Source of the DNA: Aporhodopirellula rubra
Lineage (GTDB): Bacteria; Planctomycetota; Planctomycetia; Pirellulales; Pirellulaceae
Length of the DNA: 64,000 nt
Assembly: GCF_014192335.1 (NCBI RefSeq)
Contig: NZ_JACHXU010000011.1
Location: 1 to 64,000, forward strand
Reading direction: 5' to 3'
Below, piece after piece: positions 1 to 10,066 of the stretch (its first letter is position 1; each line of letters opens with the position of its first letter). The position numbers were made by a program, and so were the translations under genes. The notes under the pieces were generated by a model. That model saw only the letters and a program-made list of their open reading frames with translations. It searched no databases and was not told the origin of the DNA.

Positions 1-1083
1 GATTTGGATCGCAACACGATCTCAATCGTTCAAGGGAAAGGGAACGTGGATCGTCAGGTGATGTTGCCGGCGACTTATCGGGCAATGTTCGCGGCAGTCA
101 AAGGGCAGTTGGGAGGAGACGCGTATTTGTTTCCGAGTGAGTCGGTGTCGCGAGGCGGTTCGAGCTCGTCGCGTTACCTGTCGCCTCGCACGGTACAGCG
201 TGCGATGAAGAAAGCGGTCGCGATCGCGGGAATCATGAAGGACGCCACGCCACACAGTTTGCGTCACTCGTTCGCGACGCACAGTTTCGAGGACGGGTGT
301 GACATCCGCCGCATCCAAAAGGTGCTCGGTCACGTTCGGCTGGAAACGACGACGATTTACGTCCACATCGCCAAGCCGGCCGAGCCGTCGCTGATGCCCA
401 GTCCGATGGACCGGTTGTCGGAGTCGAAAGAACAAGTGACGGCGGAAGAGTACGTAACGGGGCGGGCCGGTTCGAGACGTGTCAATTCGAAAAGGGCGGA
501 TTCAGGAAGGGCCGATTCAGAAAGGAACTGTCCGGTAAGGGGCGGTTCTGGAAGGGGTGATTCCGGAAGGGGCGGGGCACGTCGAGCGAATCCGTCGGGA
601 GCGAACGGGTCGCGTGTGGATGAGGGCGTTGGATCCGGTCGAGATGCGGTGGCGGGGAGGTTGGCGGGAACTTTGGCTGGGTTCGTCAATCCGCCGCGTG
701 TTCACGTGAAGCGTTTCGAGGGCGAGTCGTGGACTCGCGTGACGGTTGAGATTGTGGCGACGTCGGGGCGAGTGTTTTTGACCGGGATTCGGGCGACGGA
801 GTCACGGCCGGGGTTTTGGACGTTATCGATCCCGCCGCTGGAGAGTTGGCGGGACGAGATCGGGCGGCTCGATGCGGTGCAATGCAAAGTGTGGAGGCGG
901 AGTTCTATGAGTTTCTGCGAGCGTCGATCGGGAGCCGGTTGCGGGCGAGTGAGTCGGAGCGTGCGAGTTCGGTCGCGGAGGTTCGCACGAGTGGCTTGGG
1001 GGCAGCGTTGTCTCGGAAGGTCGATCAGAAAGTCCAGGAGTCGCGGTCTCGGTTCGTCGTGTCGAAGTCGGCGTAGAGGCTAG
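1..1083 (+). CDS. Tyrosine recombinase, 3' part, with long C-terminal extension (5'-truncated by window)
   Basis: The reading frame is open from base 1, so the gene starts upstream of the window. The first ~125 residues are the catalytic half of a Xer/IntI-type tyrosine recombinase: the beta-hairpin Lys in QGKGNVDRQVMLP, the box II motif HSLRH (about H84 and R87 counting from the TTG codon at base 4), GH (H110) and the nucleophile in TTTIYVHI (Y119). It is followed by SPMDRL, which resembles the SPLDRL end of integron-type integrases; the extra IntI-specific helix is absent. After this the frame runs on for ~230 residues through an Arg/Gly/Ser-rich linker into a compact stretch (about residues 235-290) with only a faint resemblance to SpoVG. 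The last ~65 residues look out of frame: a 5-bp duplication at 878-887 shifts the frame, and the alternative frame ends at 1076 with a normal-looking protein tail. Function as a recombinase is well supported; the role of the extension is unknown. Confidence 0.75.
   Translation, partial: DLDRNTISIVQGKGNVDRQVMLPATYRAMFAAVKGQLGGDAYLFPSESVSRGGSSSSRYLSPRTVQRAMKKAVAIAGIMKDATPHSLRHSFATHSFEDGCDIRRIQKVLGHVRLETTTIYVHIAKPAEPSLMPSPMDRLSESKEQVTAEEYVTGRAGSRRVNSKRADSGRADSERNCPVRGGSGRGDSGRGGARRANPSGANGSRVDEGVGSGRDAVAGRLAGTLAGFVNPPRVHVKRFEGESWTRVTVEIVATSGRVFLTGIRATESRPGFWTLSIPPLESWRDEIGRLDAVQCKVWRRSSMSFCERRSGAGCGRVSRSVRVRSRRFARVAWGQRCLGRSIRKSRSRGLGSSCRSRRRG
878..887 (+). repeat. 5-bp tandem duplication (TGCAA x2) causing a frameshift
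   Basis: TGCAATGCAA sits where the recombinase extension changes from plausible to implausible protein. Deleting one copy joins DAVQ directly to SVEAEFYEFLRASIG in the other frame, which runs to a stop at 1076. This is either a real recent mutation or a sequencing or assembly error. Confidence 0.6.
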
Positions 1084-1270: not shown

Positions 1271-2165
1271 CTGAGGCTCTCAGGCCGTGTCGGTGAGGAG
1301 CTGACCGAGGGCCTCGGTTAGCTACGAGGGTGTTTGGTGATGTTTGGGTTGGTGGGGCTGGTGATGGGTTGTGTGGGGTTTGGTATTTGAATGAATTGTG
1401 GCGGACTGAGGCTCTCAGGCCGTGTTGGTGTGTGGGGCTGACCGAGGGCCTCGGTTAGCTACGAGGGTGTTTGGTGGATGATGTGGGCTGGTGGGGTTGG
1501 TGATGGGGCGTGCGGGGGTTGGTGTTTGATTGAACTTTGGCGGACTGAGGCTCTCAGGGTGTGTCGGTGTGTGGGGCTGACCGAGGGCCTCGGTTAGCTA
1601 CGAGGGTGTTTGGTGGATGATGTGGGTTGGTGGGGTTGGTGATGGGGCGTGTGGTGGTTGGTGTTTGATTGAACTTTGGCGGACTGAGGCTCTCAGGCCG
1701 TGTCGGTGTGTGGGGCTGACCGAGGGCCTGGGTTAGTTACGAGGGTGTTTGGTGGATGATATGGGCTGGTGGGGTTGGTGATGGGGCGTGCGGGGGTTGG
1801 TGTTTGATTGAATTGTGGCGGGCTGAGGCTCTCAGGCCGTGTTGGTGTGTGGGGCTGACCGAGGGCCTCGGTTAGCTACGAGGGTGTTTGGTGGATGATG
1901 TGGGTTGGTGGGGCTGGTGATGGGGTGTGTGGGGTTTGGTGTTTGATTGAATTGTGGCGGACTGAGGCTCTCAGGCCGTGTCGGTGTGTGGGGCTGACCG
2001 AGGGCCTCGGTTAGCTACGAGGGTGTTTGGTGATGTTTGGGTTGGTGGGGTTGGTGATGGGGCGTGCGGGGGTTGGTATTTGATTGAATTGTGGCGGACT
2101 GAGGCTCTCAGGCCGTGATGATGTGTGGGGCTGACCGAGGGCCTCGGTCAGCTACGGGGGTGTTT
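1271..2165. repeat. Seven-copy tandem array of ~139-bp units, each with two stem-loops
   Basis: The landmark CTGAGGCTCTCAG begins at 1271, 1406, 1545, 1684, 1823, 1962 and 2099, giving periods of 135, 139, 139, 139, 139 and 137. Each unit holds stem-loop 1 (CTGAG-GCT-CTCAG, extended by flanking GG/CC) and, about 20-25 bases on, stem-loop 2 (CTGACCGAG-GGC-CTCGGTTAG, nine pairs with one G·U). The rest of the unit is G/T-rich with GTTGGTG and GATGGGG motifs and has no convincing ORF. In the last unit the G·U pair becomes G-C (CTCGGTCAG), a change that keeps the pairing. No coding gene is seen between 1084 and 2429. The function is unknown; possibilities are a recombination target, a structured RNA array or simple tandem expansion. 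Confidence 0.85.
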
Positions 2166-2429: not shown

Positions 2430-2472
2430 GGGGCTGTAGCTCAGTCGGTTAGAGCTGGGAACTCATAATTCC
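2430..2472 (+). pseudogene. 5' half of a CAU-anticodon tRNA gene (left junction of element A)
   Basis: Bases 2430-2472 match 8481-8523 over 43 positions with two differences (2446 and 2450, both in the D-loop). The copy covers the acceptor 5' strand, D-arm and anticodon arm including CTCATAA, then diverges at 2473, so T-arm and acceptor 3' strand are missing. It is best read as the original chromosomal 5' half separated from its 3' half when element A inserted. Confidence 0.8.
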
Positions 2473-2599
2473 GATTGGCGTCTTTCGCCAAGTCCCGCCA
2501 GGACGCCCTCGGATAGCGCAAAACACCGTATTTTGCAGCGCCAAACGCCGTCGCCACACTCGCCGGTTCACGCCGCCTCCCGCCGAGTAACGCCTCCGA

Positions 2600-2620
2600 A
2601 ATATCCCCTATGTATCCCCG
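2600..2620 (+). repeat. 21-bp direct repeat, left arm of element A
   Basis: This is identical to 8395-8415 (core ATATCCCCTATGTATCCCC). One copy lies inside each end of element A, which is the arrangement expected for integrase arm-type binding sites; that function is inferred. Confidence 0.6.
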
Positions 2621-2702
2621 GAGATAGAAAGACTTGAAATCAGATTTTGATCTGCCAGGGTGACCTGCGGAATTACGCCTTGCTTAATGGAGGCGACTCC
2701 AC

Positions 2703-2798
2703 ATGGTGAAGATCAAGATATCAAGCAACGGAGTGGCAGCGTGCTACGTAAGCAAATCGACGGACAGTACACCGCATCGCTACAGCCGAGCGGAATGA
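2703..2798 (+). CDS. 31-aa small ORF translationally coupled to the HTH gene
   Basis: The ORF reads ATG GTG AAG ATC … GCG GAA TGA and encodes a 31-residue basic peptide starting MVKIKISSNG. A GGAGG at 2689-2693 sits about nine bases before the ATG, the best ribosome binding site in this part of the element. Its TGA (2796-2798) overlaps the ATG of the downstream HTH gene (2795-2797) as ATGA, a classical translational coupling arrangement. It could be a leader peptide whose main job is to deliver ribosomes to the next gene, or a small protein in its own right; no family is recognised. Confidence 0.45.
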   Translation: MVKIKISSNGVAACYVSKSTDSTPHRYSRAE

Positions 2799-2980
2799 AG
2801 AAAGCAGACGCCGCGTACTACTGCGGTTTGTCCGTGAGGACCTTTGAGCGGCTCGTGGCGTCTGGGGAAATCCGACCGCGACGGGTGGGTAGCCGCACCA
2901 TCATCTACCTACGCAGCGAACTGGATGAGTATCTGGGGCAATTGCCGGTCGGCGGTGGCGAGATGCCATCAGTCGACTAA
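2795..2980 (+). CDS. Excisionase-like / HTH_17 DNA-binding protein
   Basis: The product is 61 residues starting MKKADAAYYCGLSVRTFERL. The sequence has the MerR-like excisionase helix-turn-helix: AAYYCGLSVRTFERLVASGEIRPRRVGSRTIIYLRSELDEYL, i.e. helix-turn-helix then the wing in which an Arg-rich strand precedes the RSELDEYL helix. Proteins of this type act as recombination directionality factors or small transcription regulators in integrative elements. The ATG at 2795 is chosen because it overlaps the stop of the preceding small ORF; an in-frame upstream extension to 2690 would cover that ORF and is less likely. It lies near the left end of element A, as expected for a xis gene, while the matching integrase at the right end is a relic. 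Confidence 0.7.
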   Translation: MKKADAAYYCGLSVRTFERLVASGEIRPRRVGSRTIIYLRSELDEYLGQLPVGGGEMPSVD

Positions 2981-3201
2981 AAGACTACGAACAAATCCTC
3001 TTGCGTGGGCTGGCGATCGCCCTGAAGATATTCGCACCGCCATGACGGTGTCAGTTGGCCTCACGATTGAGGCGCATGAAAAAGCCCCGATGATCCGTCG
3101 CCAAACAGTGACCATCGAGGCTCATCACCTGATGCGTCGATGATACGGTAGGCGAAGCCAAATTCAACCGCATCAGATCACTCCCAAGTCATCTGATAAA
3201 A

Positions 3202-3378
3202 ATGTCTGACTCCCTCCCTGATACACAGCGTGAGCAAAACTCCCTCTCGTCGTCTTGCCTAACCCCCGCGCAAGTAGACGCCATCGCGAGACTGCTCCTG
3301 AGCCTGACGGAGGACCGTAGCGACGGTGCAGATGAACCGACCAGCCGTGTCGGTCAGCGCGAGCAGAAAGAGGCTTAG
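3202..3378 (+). CDS. Hypothetical 58-aa protein
   Basis: The ORF starts MSDSLPDTQREQNSLSSS and ends QREQKEA, with a short central helix (AQVDAIARLLLSLTED) and polar flanks. No family is recognised and no good Shine-Dalgarno sequence is seen before the ATG. Support comes from the normal-looking composition and from the double-hairpin module that starts 33 bases after the stop, an arrangement repeated at 7463-7716 after another small gene. Moderate to low confidence. Confidence 0.4.
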   Translation: MSDSLPDTQREQNSLSSSCLTPAQVDAIARLLLSLTEDRSDGADEPTSRVGQREQKEA

Positions 3379-3411
3379 TTTCGCTATGGATGGCGATCAT
3401 TTCGGCCACGA

Positions 3412-3466
3412 TTTAAAAACCCCAGCTTGGGGTTTTTAAATTCGTCCCGCAAAACACGGTGTTTTT
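3412..3466. terminator. Double-hairpin module, copy 1
   Basis: TTTAAAAACCCC (3412) pairs with GGGGTTTTTAAA around a short AGCTT centre, making a bidirectional terminator-like stem. Ten bases later AAAACAC-G-GTGTTTT (3451-3465) forms a second stem ending in T. The ~60-bp module recurs almost unchanged at 7661-7716. Confidence 0.75.
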
Positions 3467-3635
3467 GGGTCTGAACGCCCAAGACTAGAGATTGACCCGA
3501 TCGGGTGTTCTCATTTTTAACAGACACAAAAAAACGGGCATCAAGCAATTTGCCTGATGACCGTAATTGAATCGGGATGACTTTGAGCTGTGGCGGCGAT
3601 CAGTCATCTCTCCCGTACACGACTGAGGTAGAGTC

Positions 3636-4964
3636 ATGCAGCTGAACGACATTGTACGCGTGCAAAAAGCCAAGGGCAACAACTTGCCCAAACGGGAGCC
3701 GCTGGCAAGGGTGGCGGTCCCAAGGTCGGTTGAATTGCCATCTGGCGTCGAGGGTGATAACTGGGCGCTGTTCTTGTCGACACTCGCCCTGCATACATCG
3801 CTGACACGCGAGAGGCGAGATCACGGCCACTGGGTCAACCTCCACAACCAAAATCTCTCGACGTTGCTAGGCCGGAGCTATCGCCGCCGAATCGATGCAA
3901 TGATCGACGCTGGCATCGTCGAGCGGAACGATCGCTATTCGACGGGCATGGAAGGCGTCAAAGCGTTCACGAAGTCGTACAGGATCGCAGAGCAGCACCG
4001 AACAGGGCAGTCGCGACAGCACTGCATCACGTCACGCCCGGTCGCGAAGAAGGTAGCAAAGACGTACGCGGTCGACCCAGAGAACTTAGGGCAGGCTGGA
4101 ATGCACTACCGAGAATGCTTCAACAAATTGCGTTTGGATGAAGCGGCGGCGGAAGATCCGAAGCTAACCAACCACTGGGACCAGTGGACGATAGCACGAT
4201 GGCACAACAGACAGGAGTTCGCGAAACGGTGCGATTATGGGAGGTATCACGGTCTGACCTCACAGCTACCAAAACGCGCGAGAAAGCATCTACGGACAAT
4301 CAATGGAGAAGACATCGTCGTTGTCGACGTCTCAGCCTGTCAGCCACTCATAACAGGGCACCTAGCTCACCAACACACCACAGGCAACCACCCACCGCAA
4401 CGCGCCCCACTACCATATGACGCGCGTTTTTCGAAAATGGAAAAGAACAAGACCAAACCGGATGTGGCGAGGTGGATCGAGCTGTGTGAATCGAAATCGT
4501 TCTATCGGTATTTCTTCGATTCAATCCAGACGTTCGACGGTGACACAACCGCGACGATCAAGCTGCAATCAGGGCGGACGATCAGGACTGATATGCGGGA
4601 AATGCCCGAACGCTCGATCAAGCGGGCGACGTTGATTCCCGTTTTCGACCGTACTGACGCAATGAGACGTTCGCCGATCTTCCGTATCATCGAGCGTGAC
4701 TTCCCAACTATTGCAAATTTCATCGTTGCGGCTAAAGAAAGCGGACATCAGCGATTAGCCTGTCTGCTGCAGCGCACCGAGTCGGGACTTATGATCGACG
4801 GACTAGGGAACGAGCTAAGGAAGCGACACCCAGGCGTGACGGCACAGCCGATCCACGATGCGATAGTGGTACCGGTATCGTTCGCGGCCACTGCCGCCGA
4901 ACTGATTCGGGAGCAGTTCGGTAGAGTAGGTCTATCGCCTAGTGTGACGGCGGACGCTGTGTAG
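3636..4964 (+). CDS. Polymerase-like replication protein (derived family-A/T7-RNAP-type palm, tentative)
   Basis: The product is 442 residues. The N-terminal ~120 residues look like a winged-helix region (LHNQNLSTLLGRSYRRRIDAMIDAGIVERND). The C-terminal half has landmarks that resemble a diverged family-A polymerase palm: an Asp at D231 in VVVDVSACQP (motif A-like, compare DxSQ), a Lys-rich helix RSIKRATLIPVF (K329, motif B-like), RDFPTIANFI, RTESGLMID (E382) and IHDAIVVP (H407-D408, motif C-like, as in VHDE/IHDS). Proteins with this D-x-S/N…QP and HDxI pattern occur on phage and plasmid-like elements. A role in element replication is inferred; catalytic activity cannot be claimed from the sequence alone. 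It stands alone, with a convergent-type terminator after it. Confidence 0.5.
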   Translation: MQLNDIVRVQKAKGNNLPKREPLARVAVPRSVELPSGVEGDNWALFLSTLALHTSLTRERRDHGHWVNLHNQNLSTLLGRSYRRRIDAMIDAGIVERNDRYSTGMEGVKAFTKSYRIAEQHRTGQSRQHCITSRPVAKKVAKTYAVDPENLGQAGMHYRECFNKLRLDEAAAEDPKLTNHWDQWTIARWHNRQEFAKRCDYGRYHGLTSQLPKRARKHLRTINGEDIVVVDVSACQPLITGHLAHQHTTGNHPPQRAPLPYDARFSKMEKNKTKPDVARWIELCESKSFYRYFFDSIQTFDGDTTATIKLQSGRTIRTDMREMPERSIKRATLIPVFDRTDAMRRSPIFRIIERDFPTIANFIVAAKESGHQRLACLLQRTESGLMIDGLGNELRKRHPGVTAQPIHDAIVVPVSFAATAAELIREQFGRVGLSPSVTADAV

Positions 4965-4987
4965 TTCGGTCACGGCAAAATGATCGC

Positions 4988-5023
4988 ACAAAAAAAACAC
5001 GCCCCAGAGTGATCCAGGGCGTG
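4988..5023 (-). terminator. Terminator for leftward transcription
   Basis: CACGCCC (4998-5004) pairs with GGGCGTG (5017-5023). The A-run at 4990-4997 becomes a T-run after the stem when read on the minus strand. The rest of 4965-5431 holds no gene I can support. Confidence 0.55.
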
Positions 5024-5232
5024 GCCAAAGGTGATCGGCATGTCCGTACCGAGCAGTGTCAGTGTAGTGGTTGCGGTATGGTATTCAATCTCTTGGCATT
5101 TCAATCGAACTACTAGCCGAATCGTCACTCTGGTTTTGAAACGAAGGGACCTGATTGGCGTCGCGCTCTCGATGACAGGCGAGTGACAGACGTCATCACC
5201 CGCGATCGAGAGGAGCAGGACTTGGCGACCGA

Positions 5233-5262
5233 TATTCTCTACTGGTGTATTCTCTACTGGTG
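5233..5262 (+). repeat. Perfect 15-bp tandem duplication
   Basis: TATTCTCTACTGGTG occurs twice head to tail in an otherwise non-coding stretch upstream of the 5432 gene. It may be a pair of operator half-sites or a chance slippage duplication. Confidence 0.6.
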
Positions 5263-5431
5263 CTGCCGGGTTAGGCCGTTAGGCATCGACGAAAAAACCG
5301 CTTGACGCGATTCACGAAATCCGCAACATTGATCGCACGACTACTCACCAGCCGCCGCAACCGGCTGAGTCGCGATCGATCGGGAACGTTACTAACTACC
5401 GTTCACCTTCTTTCCGTTGCGAGGCACTATC

Positions 5432-5734
5432 ATGACCATCGAGTCATCACGTCGACGGTTGATCGACGCGCACCCGTCACTCTGTCAGTTCGATCAGATT
5501 CTCTTGGTCGCTACGCTGCTGAAGCAGTCGCGCCGAGACCTCACCATCGAGGAGATCAACGAGGACGTTTCGGAAATCCGGGGAGACGTTTCAGGTGACG
5601 TTCCTATTGAGACTGTTCTGGAATTCCTGGATTCCATCGGCGTCGTCAGCGAGCTAGACGGTCAGTGGCGTTTCTATGACATCGAGTCGACCACTCACAG
5701 GATCGTTGACTCGCTAGCCGCTTCTCTTCGATAG
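5432..5734 (+). CDS. Hypothetical 100-aa protein, winged-helix-like
   Basis: It starts MTIESSRRRLIDAHPSL; GAGG at 5421-5424 lies seven bases before this ATG, so it is preferred over a start 15 bases upstream. The protein is predicted to be mostly helical (QILLVATLLKQSRRDLTIEEINEDV, then PIETVLEFLDSIGVV) ending in a short beta strand (GQWRFYDI), which is the order seen in small winged-helix domains. A strong terminator follows at 5815-5842. No family recognised; a regulatory role in element A is a guess. Confidence 0.6.
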   Translation: MTIESSRRRLIDAHPSLCQFDQILLVATLLKQSRRDLTIEEINEDVSEIRGDVSGDVPIETVLEFLDSIGVVSELDGQWRFYDIESTTHRIVDSLAASLR

Positions 5735-5814
5735 CTGTTTAGTTGCTATCGGTGGTCAAGAAACAGGAGACCGCCGCGCGGGGTGTGGGGAGACGCAACA
5801 ACCCGGCATCCAAT

Positions 5815-5842
5815 CCCCCCGGCGACAAAGGGGGGCGTTTTT
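5815..5842 (+). terminator. Rho-independent terminator
   Basis: CCCCCC-GGCGACAAA-GGGGGG is followed by CGTTTTT. It ends the 5432-5734 transcript. The remaining 5843-6062 shows only a second GC-rich inverted repeat near 5921-5940 and no supportable gene. Confidence 0.8.
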
Positions 5843-6062
5843 CCTTCGTGGCAGCGCGGTGGCCACGTGTCCAAAACCTGATAAAACAGGGCCTGCCAGT
5901 TAGGCAGACTGCGTGGTTATCGCCCCCTGCCAAGGGGAGTCATTGCCGGTGTAAACTGAGTCCAGACAGGAAAACGCACGTCAAACCCCGTTTTTCCGAA
6001 CCACTCTTATCCAAATCAGTCTATCCTGAGACTTGAAAAATGTTTAGGTAAAGCTACACTTC

Positions 6063-6497
6063 ATGCGTTCCGAAGAAGTTCTAAAGGAGTACTGCGACCT
6101 GCTTGAAGTTGGAGAGTGGGGGAAAATTTGGGCAGTGAAAGTAATCCCACTTCGGCGAATGTGCTCCCAGGCAACTTCCGTTGAGGACATGGTTGAGCAG
6201 ATGGCGGAAAGCAAGATCGGTCATTTTGCTGCGGTTGTCTCGCAACTCGCGGAGAATGGAACTACGGGATCCCACAAGTTCCGATCCGAAGCAAATGGAT
6301 TCAAAGCTATCGCAATCAAGGGTAAGCAGCAGCAGATGTACAGATTCCCGGCCTTCCGCTTGCGATGCAATTGGGTTGTTGTTTACGGTTTTGTAAAGCC
6401 ACGACAAGCAACATGGGACCAGAAACATAATGACTGGGCTGATACGGTTCGAACTGAAATCACGGAAAAAATACGAGGGAAAAATGAGCAAGCTTAA
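6063..6497 (+). CDS. Probable toxin of a TAC system (HigB/Gp49-like, by context)
   Basis: The product is 144 residues, first gene of a three-gene overlapping operon. The C-terminal part (residues 71-130) carries the pattern of RelE/HigB/Gp49-like proteins: HKFRSEANGFKAIAIKG, then RFPAFRLRCNWVVVYGFVKP, a beta-rich segment followed by a basic helix. The N-terminal ~60 residues are helical. In HigB-type systems the toxin is encoded first and cleaves mRNA on the ribosome; that activity is inferred from family and gene order, since key catalytic residues cannot be assigned confidently. It overlaps the antitoxin start by 14 bases. No clear Shine-Dalgarno sequence precedes the ATG; TTGAAA (6032) and TACACT (6054) 16 bases apart could be a promoter very close to the start. 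Confidence 0.6.
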   Translation: MRSEEVLKEYCDLLEVGEWGKIWAVKVIPLRRMCSQATSVEDMVEQMAESKIGHFAAVVSQLAENGTTGSHKFRSEANGFKAIAIKGKQQQMYRFPAFRLRCNWVVVYGFVKPRQATWDQKHNDWADTVRTEITEKIRGKNEQA

Positions 6498-6864
6498 GCA
6501 GCGATTAGAAGCGACCAAGCGAGGCCGCCATTACTGCGAAACCAAATTTATTCTTGAAGTCACTGACGCGCTTGCTGACTGCCTCGAAGACTCAGGTGTC
6601 AAGAAGAAAGACTTGGCAAGCAAGCTTGGGCTTACCAGAGGCCGTATCTCACAGTTGTTCAGCGGTGAGAAAAACCTCACCCTGCGAACCTTAGCTGGCA
6701 TTCTTTGGGCGTCGGGCAAACGTGGCCGACTTGTCATTGAGGACATGGACCAGGACTCGGATGAATTCCATCCACTTAACCAATGTATCTACAACGCATC
6801 CTCTTGCACTCGCTATACTTTCAAGACGGACGCGAGTTACTGCGAAAGTAATATCTCGACATGA
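6484..6864 (+). CDS. XRE-family antitoxin with C-terminal extension (TAC antitoxin)
   Basis: The product is 126 residues. Residues 40-78 form an XRE helix-turn-helix: KKDLASKLGLTRGRISQLFS then LTLRTLAGILWASGK. The start at 6484 is preceded by a good GAGGGA and lies within the 3' end of the toxin gene. After the HTH is a ~45-residue tail (about 82-126) rich in Cys, Tyr and Phe (HPLNQCIYNASSCTRYTF). In tripartite TAC systems such as the M. tuberculosis HigBA-SecB operon the antitoxin bears a C-terminal chaperone-addiction region that is unstable without its SecB-like chaperone; this tail is in the right place to play that role (inference). The protein should bind its own promoter and neutralise the upstream toxin. 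Its stop overlaps the chaperone ATG (6861-6864). Confidence 0.75.
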   Translation: MSKLKQRLEATKRGRHYCETKFILEVTDALADCLEDSGVKKKDLASKLGLTRGRISQLFSGEKNLTLRTLAGILWASGKRGRLVIEDMDQDSDEFHPLNQCIYNASSCTRYTFKTDASYCESNIST

Positions 6865-7346
6865 CGCATAAGCTTATCGAACTCACTTCGTTGGTTTCCC
6901 CTCACGCATCTGTGCTACGGATTCGCATGACCTCTGGTCAATTCAATTCACCAGATCATTTGCCTGAGCGAAACGCTGTTGAGTTCGCTGTTTCCGCGAA
7001 ATACTTACCTGTGGAAGGGGATGGTCGCTGCGCGTGCGATGTCAGTGTTAAGGTCCGCACTACCGACAACAGCGAGGAGTCAGAGGAGTCAGAGGAAACT
7101 GGGCTTCAGATACTGGCAAACTACGAGGTGCTATTTTCAATTGAAGGCGAGCACGAGCAGGAGGCTATTGAAGCCTTTGCAAGGCTAAATGGGGTCTTCA
7201 CTGCATGGCCATACATGCGGGAGTTCACGCAGTCCTGCACATGCCGAATGGACCTGCCGCCACTAACTCTTCCACTCGTTACGGCACCAGCAATAGCGAA
7301 CCATCTTTCTAAAGACGAGGACGTCGATATCCCGGCGATCGAATAG
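6861..7346 (+). CDS. SecB-like chaperone (third gene of TAC operon)
   Basis: The product is 161 residues. It has the SecB layout: an N-terminal strand VEFAVSAKYLPVEG, a strand pair (DVSVKVRTTD), then YEVLFSIEG (residues 88-96), a helix EAIEAFARLNGVFTAWPYMRE (matching the SecB phase in which a Phe/Tyr-x-Arg helix follows the FxIEG turn) and a final DLPPLTLPLVTAP, the counterpart of the SecB PPL-x-L-x-P segment. A Glu/Ser repeat (EESEESEE, residues 72-79) in the strand-strand loop is encoded by GAGGAGTCA repeats. The ATGA overlap with the antitoxin gene argues for co-production. SecB-like partners in TAC operons fold and protect the antitoxin. That this one does so is inferred from the gene order and the antitoxin tail. 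Confidence 0.75.
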   Translation: MTHKLIELTSLVSPHASVLRIRMTSGQFNSPDHLPERNAVEFAVSAKYLPVEGDGRCACDVSVKVRTTDNSEESEESEETGLQILANYEVLFSIEGEHEQEAIEAFARLNGVFTAWPYMREFTQSCTCRMDLPPLTLPLVTAPAIANHLSKDEDVDIPAIE

Positions 7347-7462
7347 TGCGCACGGTCATTGGACGGCTCAATTTGCGCAACCGCTCATGGCCTTCATCAC
7401 GGACTTCCAGTGTTGTCTCCTGTTCGTAGTTACCTACGACTTCGGGAGACATTGGCGAGGAC

Positions 7463-7639
7463 ATGCCAGCTGCTTCCCCGATCCGAAAACGCCCGGCTCT
7501 CACAGTTATCGCTGCAATCGTGTTCGTGTTGATCGGTGCCGTCACGTTGTTGCTGGGGTCGTGGATAGACGGCGTTGGTGCGCTGCTAGTTGGCGCGGCG
7601 TGTTGGGCTATCGGGCGCGAGGGAAAGTCGCCCTCCTGA
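7463..7639 (+). CDS. Small membrane protein (58 aa)
   Basis: It starts MPAASPIRKRPALTV and ends GREGKSPS. Two hydrophobic segments follow one another (residues about 13-30, VIAAIVFVLIGAVTLLLG, and 34-48, DGVGALLVGAACWAIG) with a basic N-terminus, suggesting a two-helix inner-membrane hairpin protein. GCGAGG sits just before the ATG, with rather short spacing. The double-hairpin module starts 22 bases after the stop. Unknown function; it could be an accessory of the neighbouring toxin module or a holin-like or toxin-like peptide, but nothing proves that. Confidence 0.5.
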   Translation: MPAASPIRKRPALTVIAAIVFVLIGAVTLLLGSWIDGVGALLVGAACWAIGREGKSPS

Positions 7640-7660
7640 CGGCGATCACTTTGGCGACGA

Positions 7661-7716
7661 TTTAAAAACCCCAACTTGGGGTTTTTAAATTCGCCCCGCA
7701 AAACACGGCGTTTTTT
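7661..7716. terminator. Double-hairpin module, copy 2
   Basis: TTTAAAAACCCC…GGGGTTTTTAAA (7661-7689) then AAAACAC-G-GCGTTTTTT (7700-7716). It differs from copy 1 at only a few positions, two of them in loops or at wobble positions. Both copies lie just after small ORFs of element A. Confidence 0.75.
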
Positions 7717-7846
7717 GAAAGGCAATTTTCGGGCGCCGTCCGTTTCGAGCGTGAATTCTCGCGATGGTGTCCGCGTATTGCGGACTGCCTAGCGCAGTGA
7801 AACGATTGATTTTGGTCAATCAAATCACCTGCGACTGGAGCCTCGC

Positions 7847-8092
7847 ATGTCAACTATCGATTCGAATTCAACTCCCTCGACCGTCCACCCCCGCGTCGTC
7901 TCACTGATACGAGAGCGTATCGGCGTGGACACTTGCCGCACCCTCTCTGATGACGATTTAGTCCGGTGTGCCAGCGGCACCGCACTGATGGCTGTCTGCC
8001 AGTTACGTTACGTGGGCGAGCAGGTTAGCCAGTCTCTGTCAGACCTCGTGTCTGGTGTCAGCAGCCGCCTTGGTCGTGAGGTGCGATCATGA
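7847..8092 (+). CDS. Hypothetical 81-aa protein
   Basis: It starts MSTIDSNSTPSTVHPRVV and ends SRLGREVRS. Ser/Thr-rich N-terminus, then a helical segment (VVSLIRERIGVDTCRTLSDDDLVRCASGTALMAVC). No family recognised. Its TGA overlaps an ATG at 8089 (ATGA), suggesting that it was once coupled to a further gene, but that next frame is interrupted after about 15 codons by the integrase relic. It was probably the penultimate gene of element A before a deletion. Confidence 0.55.
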   Translation: MSTIDSNSTPSTVHPRVVSLIRERIGVDTCRTLSDDDLVRCASGTALMAVCQLRYVGEQVSQSLSDLVSGVSSRLGREVRS

Positions 8093-8131
8093 TTCCCGCT
8101 TGGCATTTCTGCTTGAGACCGATCCCAGGCT

Positions 8132-8347
8132 ATGGCATTGGCTGGCGTCCATGTCAAGACGATCCAATCAGTGATGCGACACAAGGACGTGAAATTGACT
8201 CTCGACACCTACGGCCATTTATTCCGGTCGATGGAAGCGGAGGCAGTGCAGCGGATGGCGTTGATGGTTGGCGGTGTGTCGCCGGAGGCTGCGGCAAACG
8301 CACCGCTCACGACCGAAACCAACCGGGTTGGATCTGTCGCAAACTGA
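8132..8347 (+). pseudogene. Integrase relic of element A (C-terminal ~70 codons only)
   Basis: The frame reads MALAGVHVKTIQSVMRHKDV then LTLDTYGHLFRSMEAEAVQRM. This is the end of a tyrosine recombinase catalytic domain: the third conserved His/Arg context (MRHKD, counterpart of LGH) and the nucleophile Tyr in LDTYGHL. Everything before it, including the first catalytic Arg, the Lys hairpin and the HxxR box, is missing, and the preceding bases read as a different frame. A deletion has therefore fused the 3' end of an integrase gene to an unrelated gene start at 8089. Its position 130 bases before the tRNA is the expected place for the element's own integrase. Confidence 0.75.
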
Positions 8348-8394
8348 TCTGCGCGGCTATCATCCCCGGTGCCTCGCGGCTGTTTCTGGGGGAG

Positions 8395-8415
8395 AATATC
8401 CCCTATGTATCCCCG
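8395..8415 (+). repeat. 21-bp direct repeat, right arm of element A
   Basis: This is identical to 2600-2620. It lies 48 bases after the integrase relic and 66 bases before the tRNA. Confidence 0.6.
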
Positions 8416-8429
8416 AGGCGAATTTTGCC

Positions 8430-8476
8430 GCGTTTTTAAATGTTCGAAAAACGCGATTTGTCCCGTGTTTTACGGG
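8430..8476 (+). other. Two hairpins directly upstream of the intact tRNA
   Basis: GCGTTTTT (8430-8437) pairs with AAAAACGC (8447-8454), and CCCGT-GTTTT-ACGGG (8462-8476) forms a second stem ending four bases before the tRNA. These bases come from element A, so they replace the native tRNA leader. The first stem could end element A transcripts; the second lies in the tRNA leader. Confidence 0.5.
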
Positions 8477-8480
8477 CAAA

Positions 8481-8554
8481 GGGGCTGTAGCTCAGTTGGT
8501 CAGAGCTGGGAACTCATAATTCCTAGGTCGCGGGTTCAAGTCCTGCCAGCCCTA
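8481..8554 (+). tRNA. tRNA with CAU anticodon (Ile2 or elongator Met)
   Basis: The sequence folds as a full cloverleaf: acceptor GGGGCTG / CAGCCCT (first pair G·U), D-arm GCTC…GAGC, anticodon stem GGGAA / TTCCT with loop CTCATAA, T-arm GCGGG / CCTGC with loop TTCAAGT, discriminator A. CCA is not encoded. The anticodon CAU fits either elongator Met or the lysidine-modified Ile2 tRNA. The T-arm and variable-loop wording (GGTCGC.GGTTCAAGTCC) recalls bacterial Ile2, but I cannot decide. The 5' half is supplied by element A and the 3' half is the attachment core of element B, so the gene is a patchwork that is still intact. Confidence 0.9.
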
Positions 8555-9941
8555 CTAGGTAGTAATCGCCGTTGTTGTCCTGAACTATTGAAAACCCGTT
8601 TTCTCGCGGGTTTTCCGGTGTTTTTGCCGGGTTCGCGGCAACAACGGCGGTTCCCTCTTCTGGTTCAATAGCACCAGATTCACCCGAAATGGAACCACCA
8701 GACGCGTCGGTTCCACTGGTGGCGTCCTCGGACTCCTCGGTCGGTTTCGGTGTGCCGGAGGCGACCGTCGTCGCCTCCGGATCCGATGCCGCCTTGAACG
8801 CTTCGTCCGTCGCCATCGCGTAATGCTTCATCGCCGTGGGCACCGAATTGCCGAGCCACGAGGCGACGTCCTTGGCCGGGTAGCGGGCCATCAGTTCCGT
8901 TTCGCGAGAGGCCCGCAAGTTTTGGAACAACCGGGGCCACGGCTCCACACCGCCACGCGTCAGAATTTTTAGGAACGTGGTCCCCAAGTTTTGATCGGGT
9001 CGCCGATATCGGTTGATCACGTAGGGCGACGTCGGGCCGTCCGGCATCGCATCCCATGCCGCTTGCAAGTGCCGGTGAAGTTCAGGGAATATCGGGCACA
9101 CCCGGATCCCGCCGGAGGAGTGGTGTTCAGTTTTCGACGCCGTGATGGTCATTTTGCGGGCCTCCAAATCAATATCCGACCGTCGCAGTGGGATCAATTC
9201 GGACGGGCACCGCAGGCCACCGTAACGCGTCAGGGCCAATATCAGACGCCAGTCGCCGCAGGGACAATGGTCCATCAAACTTTCAATCGTTGTCGACTCG
9301 ACGAAGTGTTGGTTTTTCTCGTTTCCTTGGCCGGTCGACGCGAGGCCCGCGAACGGATTGGAATCAATGAGGCCACGAGCCATCGCCTCACCGAAAAACA
9401 GTTTCGCCAGTGCCGTCATCTTGCGAGTCGTTTCCTCGGACAGCCCCGGTTTATCCTTGTCGCGGAGATTGCCTTTCGTCTTGATCGCAATCCGCCACTT
9501 GCGAGCGTCCTCGACCGTCACGTCACGAAGTCGTTTTCGTTTCCCGAAATAGTCGACCAGCTTCGCACGGCCGCGAGAGTAGGTGAGTTTCGTGCTTGGC
9601 TTCACGTCCTCACGCTCCGCCACGTATTCGTCGATCCATGCGACCAATGTCAGATCACGAGAGACGCGTTTGGTGACCGATTCGCACAGACCGCATTTCG
9701 CCAGCTTGTTCCGCAGGTCGTTATCAACACTCGCGAGCCAATCAGCCGTCGCCGATTCCGGTGGTCGCTGTTTTTTGGTTTGCACGATCAAGTGTTCGAC
9801 GTGGGCCTGAATATCCTCCGCCTTGGCCTCGGTCACGTCACCCAGCCAAATAGATCGCTTGCGTTTCGAAGCATCCCGAAATTGCAAACGGTATCCGCCG
9901 GTGCGTTTCTCGGTCTTTTCTTCGCGGCTCAAACTCGCCAT
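8523..9941 (-). CDS. Tyrosine integrase of element B, ending inside the tRNA gene
   Basis: The product is 472 residues from the ATG at 9941, chosen because GGAG lies eight bases upstream; an ATG nine codons earlier is possible. It has an N-terminal arm-binding region, a core-binding domain (about 90-200), then a catalytic domain with R244 (GGLRCPSE), K270 (TASKTE), R343 (FQNLRAS) and Y374 (AMKHYAM). The positions of the two canonical His residues hold Gln340 and Asn365, a pattern I associate with planctomycete integrases. A long acidic, Pro/Ser/Thr-rich region follows. The last residues, VGLAGLEPAT, are encoded by the antisense of the tRNA 3' half, and the stop lies in the tRNA. In the reconstructed circular form the frame continues through the core into the open tail now at 17095-17286. 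Confidence 0.9.
   Translation of the reverse strand: MASLSREEKTEKRTGGYRLQFRDASKRKRSIWLGDVTEAKAEDIQAHVEHLIVQTKKQRPPESATADWLASVDNDLRNKLAKCGLCESVTKRVSRDLTLVAWIDEYVAEREDVKPSTKLTYSRGRAKLVDYFGKRKRLRDVTVEDARKWRIAIKTKGNLRDKDKPGLSEETTRKMTALAKLFFGEAMARGLIDSNPFAGLASTGQGNEKNQHFVESTTIESLMDHCPCGDWRLILALTRYGGLRCPSELIPLRRSDIDLEARKMTITASKTEHHSSGGIRVCPIFPELHRHLQAAWDAMPDGPTSPYVINRYRRPDQNLGTTFLKILTRGGVEPWPRLFQNLRASRETELMARYPAKDVASWLGNSVPTAMKHYAMATDEAFKAASDPEATTVASGTPKPTEESEDATSGTDASGGSISGESGAIEPEEGTAVVAANPAKTPENPRENGFSIVQDNNGDYYLVGLAGLEPAT
8535..8556 (+). repeat. attL core of element B (22 bp, tRNA 3' end)
   Basis: TTCAAGTCCTGCCAGCCCTA plus CT: the T-loop to acceptor 3' strand of the tRNA. It is identical to 17287-17308 and the flanking bases differ on both sides. 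Confidence 0.85.
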
Positions 9942-10066
9942 TGAATCAACTCCATCAGTTGTTCCCATGTAGGTGAATGAAGAGCCACGGCGGGGCCGGC
10001 ATGGGACCGGCTTTTCGGCCGCTAAACCTAGCCGTGGCCAAACGCATCATAGCGGTGAATCTCGAA

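Follow-up and report, generated by a model that had tools for sequence, protein, structure and literature searches.

A seven-unit tandem array of inverted REP pairs beside an integron-integrase-like gene in a planctomycete genome

A tandem repeat with two stem-loops in every unit lies between a recombinase gene and a tRNA in a planctomycete genome, raising the question of what kind of element it is and which enzyme it belongs to. We analysed this locus in a window of 64,000 nucleotides, bases 1–64000 of contig 11 (C11) of an 8.5-Mb draft genome labelled G000, and compared it with other loci of the same genome and genus.

Architecture of the repeat

TRF placed the array at 1218–2187 on the plus strand, with a period of 139 nt, 7.0 copies and 91% matches (score 1597), bearing out the seven-copy repeat of ~139 bp described in an earlier note and extending it slightly beyond the span given there (1271–2165). 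A repeat search likewise recovered the array, with unit-to-unit spacings of 139 nt in five cases and 137 nt in one. Within each unit, hairpins A and B and the short linker between them take up 63–65 nt and are followed by a ~74-nt G/T-rich spacer. Both stem-loops are present in all seven units, as the earlier note had stated. Hairpin A, CGG(A/G)CTGAG-GCT-CTCAGGCCG, is longer than noted there, its 9-nt arms containing a single internal mismatch, or two in the case of unit 3, and hairpin B reads CTGACCGAG-GGC-CTCGGTYAG. Two changes previously seen in hairpin B could be confirmed: in unit 7 GGTTAG becomes GGTCAG, so that a G·T pair gives way to G-C and the stem is kept, and unit 4 carries a single mismatch (CCTGGG), its head being altered as well.

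On the minus strand, the sequence of hairpin B in unit 7 is GTAG-CTGACCGAG-GCC-CTCGGTCAG, which is the layout of a REP. REPs are defined by a GTAG or GTGG tetranucleotide 0–2 nt from the foot of a stem-loop (PMC6006769), and the array hairpins carry such heads: hairpin B has GTAG in six of the seven units, and hairpin A has GTGG in five. The head of hairpin A is GTAG, not GTGG, in the unit of the congener G001, in the arrays on C32 and C47 and in the array at C11:217k. Since the two REPs are inverted with their heads pointing outwards in 7/7 units, each unit is a REPIN/BIME. The seven REPINs lie on the plus strand at 1263–1325 (hairpin A with head GTGG, linker, hairpin B with head GTAG on the minus strand), 1398–1462, 1537–1601 (A head TTGG), 1676–1740 (hairpin B mismatched, A head TTGG, B head GTAA), 1815–1879, 1954–2018 and 2091–2155 (the unit with G-C in hairpin B).

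Folded as single-stranded DNA, two units were each more stable than all 200 of their dinucleotide shuffles (z −5.2 and −3.6). Conservation of the stems by covariation, a check proposed in the earlier note, was evident among 29 REPs: the outer six stem pairs showed standard pairing in 94.7% of cells, compared to 5–42% in slid controls, and compensatory changes occurred at two stem positions, where pairs 6-25 and 10-21 take C-G, G-C and U-A. RNAalifold on the whole-unit alignment returned hairpin B only, the 3- and 4-nt loops of hairpin A being out of register, and the arms were afterwards paired by script for the hairpin comparison. Covariation, heads, layout and matches at the flanks of a transposase gene (described below) are direct evidence that the palindromes of the array are REPs. 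A G3+ G-quadruplex motif is absent from the array, with a G4Hunter value of 0.95 across it.

Copies in the genus and a matching RAYT transposase

By DNA searches, about 14 sites of G000 proved to carry the unit or its core, the locus of a RAYT transposase among them, and such repetition at many places between genes is in line with what defines a REP. With a single-REP model applied to 13 genus genomes, we counted 65 copies in G000, 48 in G003, 42 in G004 and 34 in G006, 3–6 copies in three further genomes and none in six. One of the readings offered in the earlier note, a dispersed planctomycete repeat that had expanded, was thus right, the repeat being a REPIN/BIME whose REPs occur in 7/13 genus genomes. 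The count of 65 in G000 is low compared to classical REP families, which often exceed 100 copies (PMC2817692).

The arrays of G000 differ in period from locus to locus (139, 151, 115, 90, 136–137 and 238 nt), as local expansion would produce, and have their own spacers. The conserved part is therefore the hairpin pair of 63–66 nt and not the 139-nt unit, the remainder of which is local sequence co-amplified with the pair. G001 holds a perfect single-copy unit of the window type, GTAGCGGACTGAGGCCTCTCAGTCCG...GCTGACCGAGGGCCTCGGTCAGCTAC. Additionally, the right end of contig C23 carries a second copy of the window array together with its right flank (93.5% over 371 nt); this copy comprises no more than about 2.3 units and is broken off within hairpin B, where a sequence present in four copies in the genome ends. 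With seven units in one array and about 2.3 in the other, which is cut by another element, the histories of the two have diverged. No empty site was found for the array at C11:217k, where genus flanks are not conserved and only an IS-like end was recognised.

The RAYT (TnpA-REP) gene of G000 (C2:201720–202433) encodes 238 aa and is flanked on both sides by REP pairs of the window's kind in the same arrangement. It has orthologues in G003 and G004, the G003 gene being 93% identical to that of G000 and 87% to that of G004, and in all three genomes the pairs on either side of the gene are of the GTAACCGACTGAGGCCTCTCAGTCGG / GTAGCTGACCGAGGCCTCTCGGTCAG type. Several more distant RAYTs of the genus are each bordered by GTAG or GTGG hairpins of their own that are unrelated to these. 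The G000 protein lies above the Pfam cut-off for Y1_Tnp and reaches 72.6 bits (2.9e-20) against NCBIfam REP_Tyr_transpos, for which the cut-off is 80. Its alignment to the E. coli TnpA-REP structure 4er8 (E 0.001, 21.6 bits) covers residues 139–216 only, running through the HVH, WQP and YIQNNP motifs of the Y1/HUH core. A scan of the genome collection with this RAYT gave a best match of 48% in a Rhodopirellula MAG, followed mainly by Verrucomicrobia and other phyla.

Judged by sequence, it is this RAYT that corresponds to the repeats and not the neighbouring recombinase, which we dropped as the acting enzyme. We infer that the RAYT recognises, cleaves and mobilises the REPs of the window, the cleavage by analogy with what has been published for E. 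coli TnpA-REP (PMC6006769). The REPs flanking the RAYT have mostly 4-nt loops and slightly different arms, whereas those of the window have 3-nt loops, so that the mover of the window type could be another RAYT, possibly one that has been lost. RAYT presence and REP number are also not strictly coupled, as G006 has its 34 REPs without a close RAYT orthologue.

Elements of this kind are already known, as GTAG REPs in Rhodopirellula baltica and as tandem REPIN clusters in Pseudomonas, and in this respect the array is largely ordinary. Bertels and Rainey 2011 (PMC3116915) describe REPINs and tandem REPIN clusters with flanking sequence in P. fluorescens SBW25; there, as here, the unit is an inverted REP pair, and an SBW25 cluster also adjoins a RAYT, but the SBW25 clusters have at most four units plus one REP, compared to seven units here. 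The window array differs further in its G/T-rich spacers, its planctomycete host and its lower genome copy number (65 REPs found). With E. coli BIMEs and REPtrons (Ton-Hoang 2012, cited in PMC6006769), it shares the GTAG head, the hairpin and a REP-flanked Y1/HUH gene, although the stem sequences are different and the 238-aa RAYT resembles 4er8 only over the residues given above. R. baltica, which judging by gene similarity probably belongs to the same genus as G000, was described in 2013 as having GTAG REPs, several repeat families in its genome and a large number of tyrosine transposase genes with repeats at their flanks (PMC3733652). What exceeds the ordinary is the recurrent position beside integron integrases, the intron and IS ends at the hairpins and the one-sided G/T spacers. 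A striking repeat is hereby accounted for as a REPIN cluster with a likely transposase identified, and close relatives ranging from 0 to 65 REP copies are useful for following REPIN birth and loss.

Integron integrases and other elements at the hairpins

The gene upstream of the array (1–1083, plus strand) encodes the C-terminal part of an integron-integrase-like tyrosine recombinase with a C-terminal extension (PF00589, 82 bits). Its best NCBIfam match is TIGR02249, integron integrase (positions 215–315), at 106 bits, under the 265-bit cut-off because the gene is cut by the contig start at window base 1. The extension of ~200 aa (440–1083) includes a 15-nt G-rich repeat at 494–575, and an 86-aa frame at 816–1076 overlaps the gene, possibly reflecting a frameshift or a fused gene.

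A complete integron integrase of a multi-copy kind is found on C17 (5079–6026; 429 bits, above the cut-off), its 3′ end followed by REPs, and contigs C20, C24 and C48 begin in the 3′ region of the same multi-copy integrase, each running into REP arrays. Similarly, the integrase ORFs of G003 and G004 run into a REP or stop no more than about 30 nt from one, that of G002 has a REP about 10 nt from its matched end, and a REP lies about 830 nt downstream of the integrase in G001. Among the matches listed in REP-bearing genomes, REPs occur within 1.5 kb of 5 of ~15 integron-integrase-like genes where ~0.05 would be expected, an order-of-magnitude estimate based on locus counts made by hand. An association beyond chance looks real; the integrases of G002, G003, G004 and C17 are, however, close kin, reducing it to about 2–4 independent events, and common descent, together with the gene-poor surroundings of integrons and the frequent position of REPs 3′ of genes, may suffice as its cause. 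The link to recombinases drawn in the earlier note therefore stands in part: several genomes have REPs of this family on or close to the 3′ ends of integron-integrase genes, but many copies lie elsewhere and the matching enzyme is a RAYT.

Recurrence at integrase 3′ ends, in the 5 of ~15 genes and on the four G000 contigs C17, C20, C24 and C48, would also be expected if the array were an integron platform site (attI/attC-like) on which the integrase acts. We regard this as very improbable, as both strands of 1218–2187 lack GTTRRRY and RYYYAAC attC boxes, most REP loci have no adjoining integrase, the same palindromes flank the RAYT, and so few of the integrase–REP events are independent. The absence of attC boxes also upholds the earlier view that this is not a cassette array.

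Other elements meet the hairpins as well. On C17, a REP hairpin 3′ of the integron integrase is followed immediately by a group II intron (L021, about 6769–8740), with its boundary read from the sequence as ..GGTCAGCTA / GTGCGCC, a reverse transcriptase (RT) frame at L021:7270–8649 and domain V at 8653–8730. At C11:217k an IS-like end abuts a broken hairpin, and pairs of such ends lie ~1.25 kb apart in other genus genomes; REPs are already known as IS targets (PMC1525189). Such multi-copy or IS-like ends cut into or abut REP hairpins at the right end of L016 and at L017:6641–6672, and one of them, 27 nt long, is the end that recurs in pairs ~1.25 kb apart.

A separate kind of hairpin, containing GGTACC, occurs on C44 (L092, 391–3452) as four near-identical copies after the stops of consecutive same-strand ORFs, ~800–1400 nt apart. 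This hairpin also closes the conserved 3′ region shared by the integron-integrase copies, and a sequence resembling it adjoins a second RAYT-like gene (C47:710–1390). These hairpins may form a cassette-like array whose sites are unusual, or be the repeats of a second transposase.

On its other side, the array adjoins a degenerate tRNA-Met copy (2430–2497, 28.8 bits), an intact tRNA-Met lying at 8481–8555. Between the two lie about 6 kb encoding an HTH protein (2660–2980) and a 442-aa protein without a family match (3636–4964), and an integrase (8523–9968, minus strand) and an int-alpA RNA (9965–10038, minus strand) follow, so that 2430–10038 looks like an integrated element.

Origin of the array and its G/T-rich strand

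The array is very probably a REPIN cluster (BIME-2-like), recognised by a RAYT, that was inserted 3′ of the integrase-like gene and amplified to seven copies. The Y1/HUH RAYT encoded on C2 would recognise the palindromes as single-stranded hairpins; one REPIN would have inserted between genes on the 3′ side of the integrase-like gene and, together with its local flanking sequence, would then have been amplified head-to-tail, with RAYT action, replication slippage and unequal recombination as candidate makers of the tandem copies. There is no need for a host function to account for the array.

Nearly all G000 arrays lie within about 7 kb of draft contig ends, which could point to an assembler having created or collapsed the copy number. 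The units differ, however, at 23 of 139 columns (five gap-free units), and the copies are hence not a single unit multiplied by the assembler; arrays of other periods exist within G000, single or few-copy units occur in congeners, including G003, which is one contig, and the breaks at C20, C24 and C48 fall upstream of the array, inside the multi-copy integrase 3′ region. An artefact is accordingly the least credible of the explanations considered. A transcribed structured RNA or terminator array 3′ of the integrase, its plus-strand G·U pairs kept by selection, would agree with the better folding of the plus strand over the minus (−17.6 versus −12.0 and −13.0 versus −8.2 kcal/mol), with hairpin changes that are chiefly C>T and A>G and preserve plus-strand wobble pairs, and with the transcript stabilisation or termination proposed for REPs in other bacteria (PMC3733652). 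Yet the same G/T excess marks the unpaired spacers (3% C, 8% A), where pairing cannot account for it, and Rfam gave zero matches over the array at gathering and at relaxed thresholds, making this explanation, too, highly doubtful. The structured RNA array suggested in the earlier note found no support in these searches, nor did the partition site; the note's exclusion of a CRISPR was sound, since the repetition here takes in the entire 139-nt unit and thus also its spacer, whereas CRISPRs have 24–48-bp repeats with regular, non-repetitive spacers between them (PMC3733652).

The G/T excess follows the strand that reads from hairpin A to hairpin B: 13 of 13 G000 arrays have 70–80% G+T on it, with flanks mostly near 50–60%, and the BIMEs at the RAYT and in G001 and G003 have 39–60%. 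Taking the G001 unit, a single outgroup, as the ancestral state, the hairpin arms show 15 C>T, 8 A>G, 4 G>A and 1 T>C changes (distinct changes per array). As the spacers share the bias, strand-asymmetric mutation is tentatively favoured over selection for pairing. A more speculative and on present evidence rather unlikely extension is that the family prefers integron-integrase 3′ ends and expands there, the G/T-biased strand, depleted in C and A, marking DNA that is often single-stranded (an R-loop or lagging-strand template), where the hairpins would form and recruit RAYT, group II introns and IS to the integron platform. Integrase-side recurrence and G/T polarity offer testable leads on the landing sites of single-stranded-DNA elements. 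GT-rich intergenic islands (L009–L013, L019, L021) also hold further palindromes, TGTCGGCCC..GGGCCTGGGGG and GGCTGACGCCACCGGCATTGG, which may be additional REP families.
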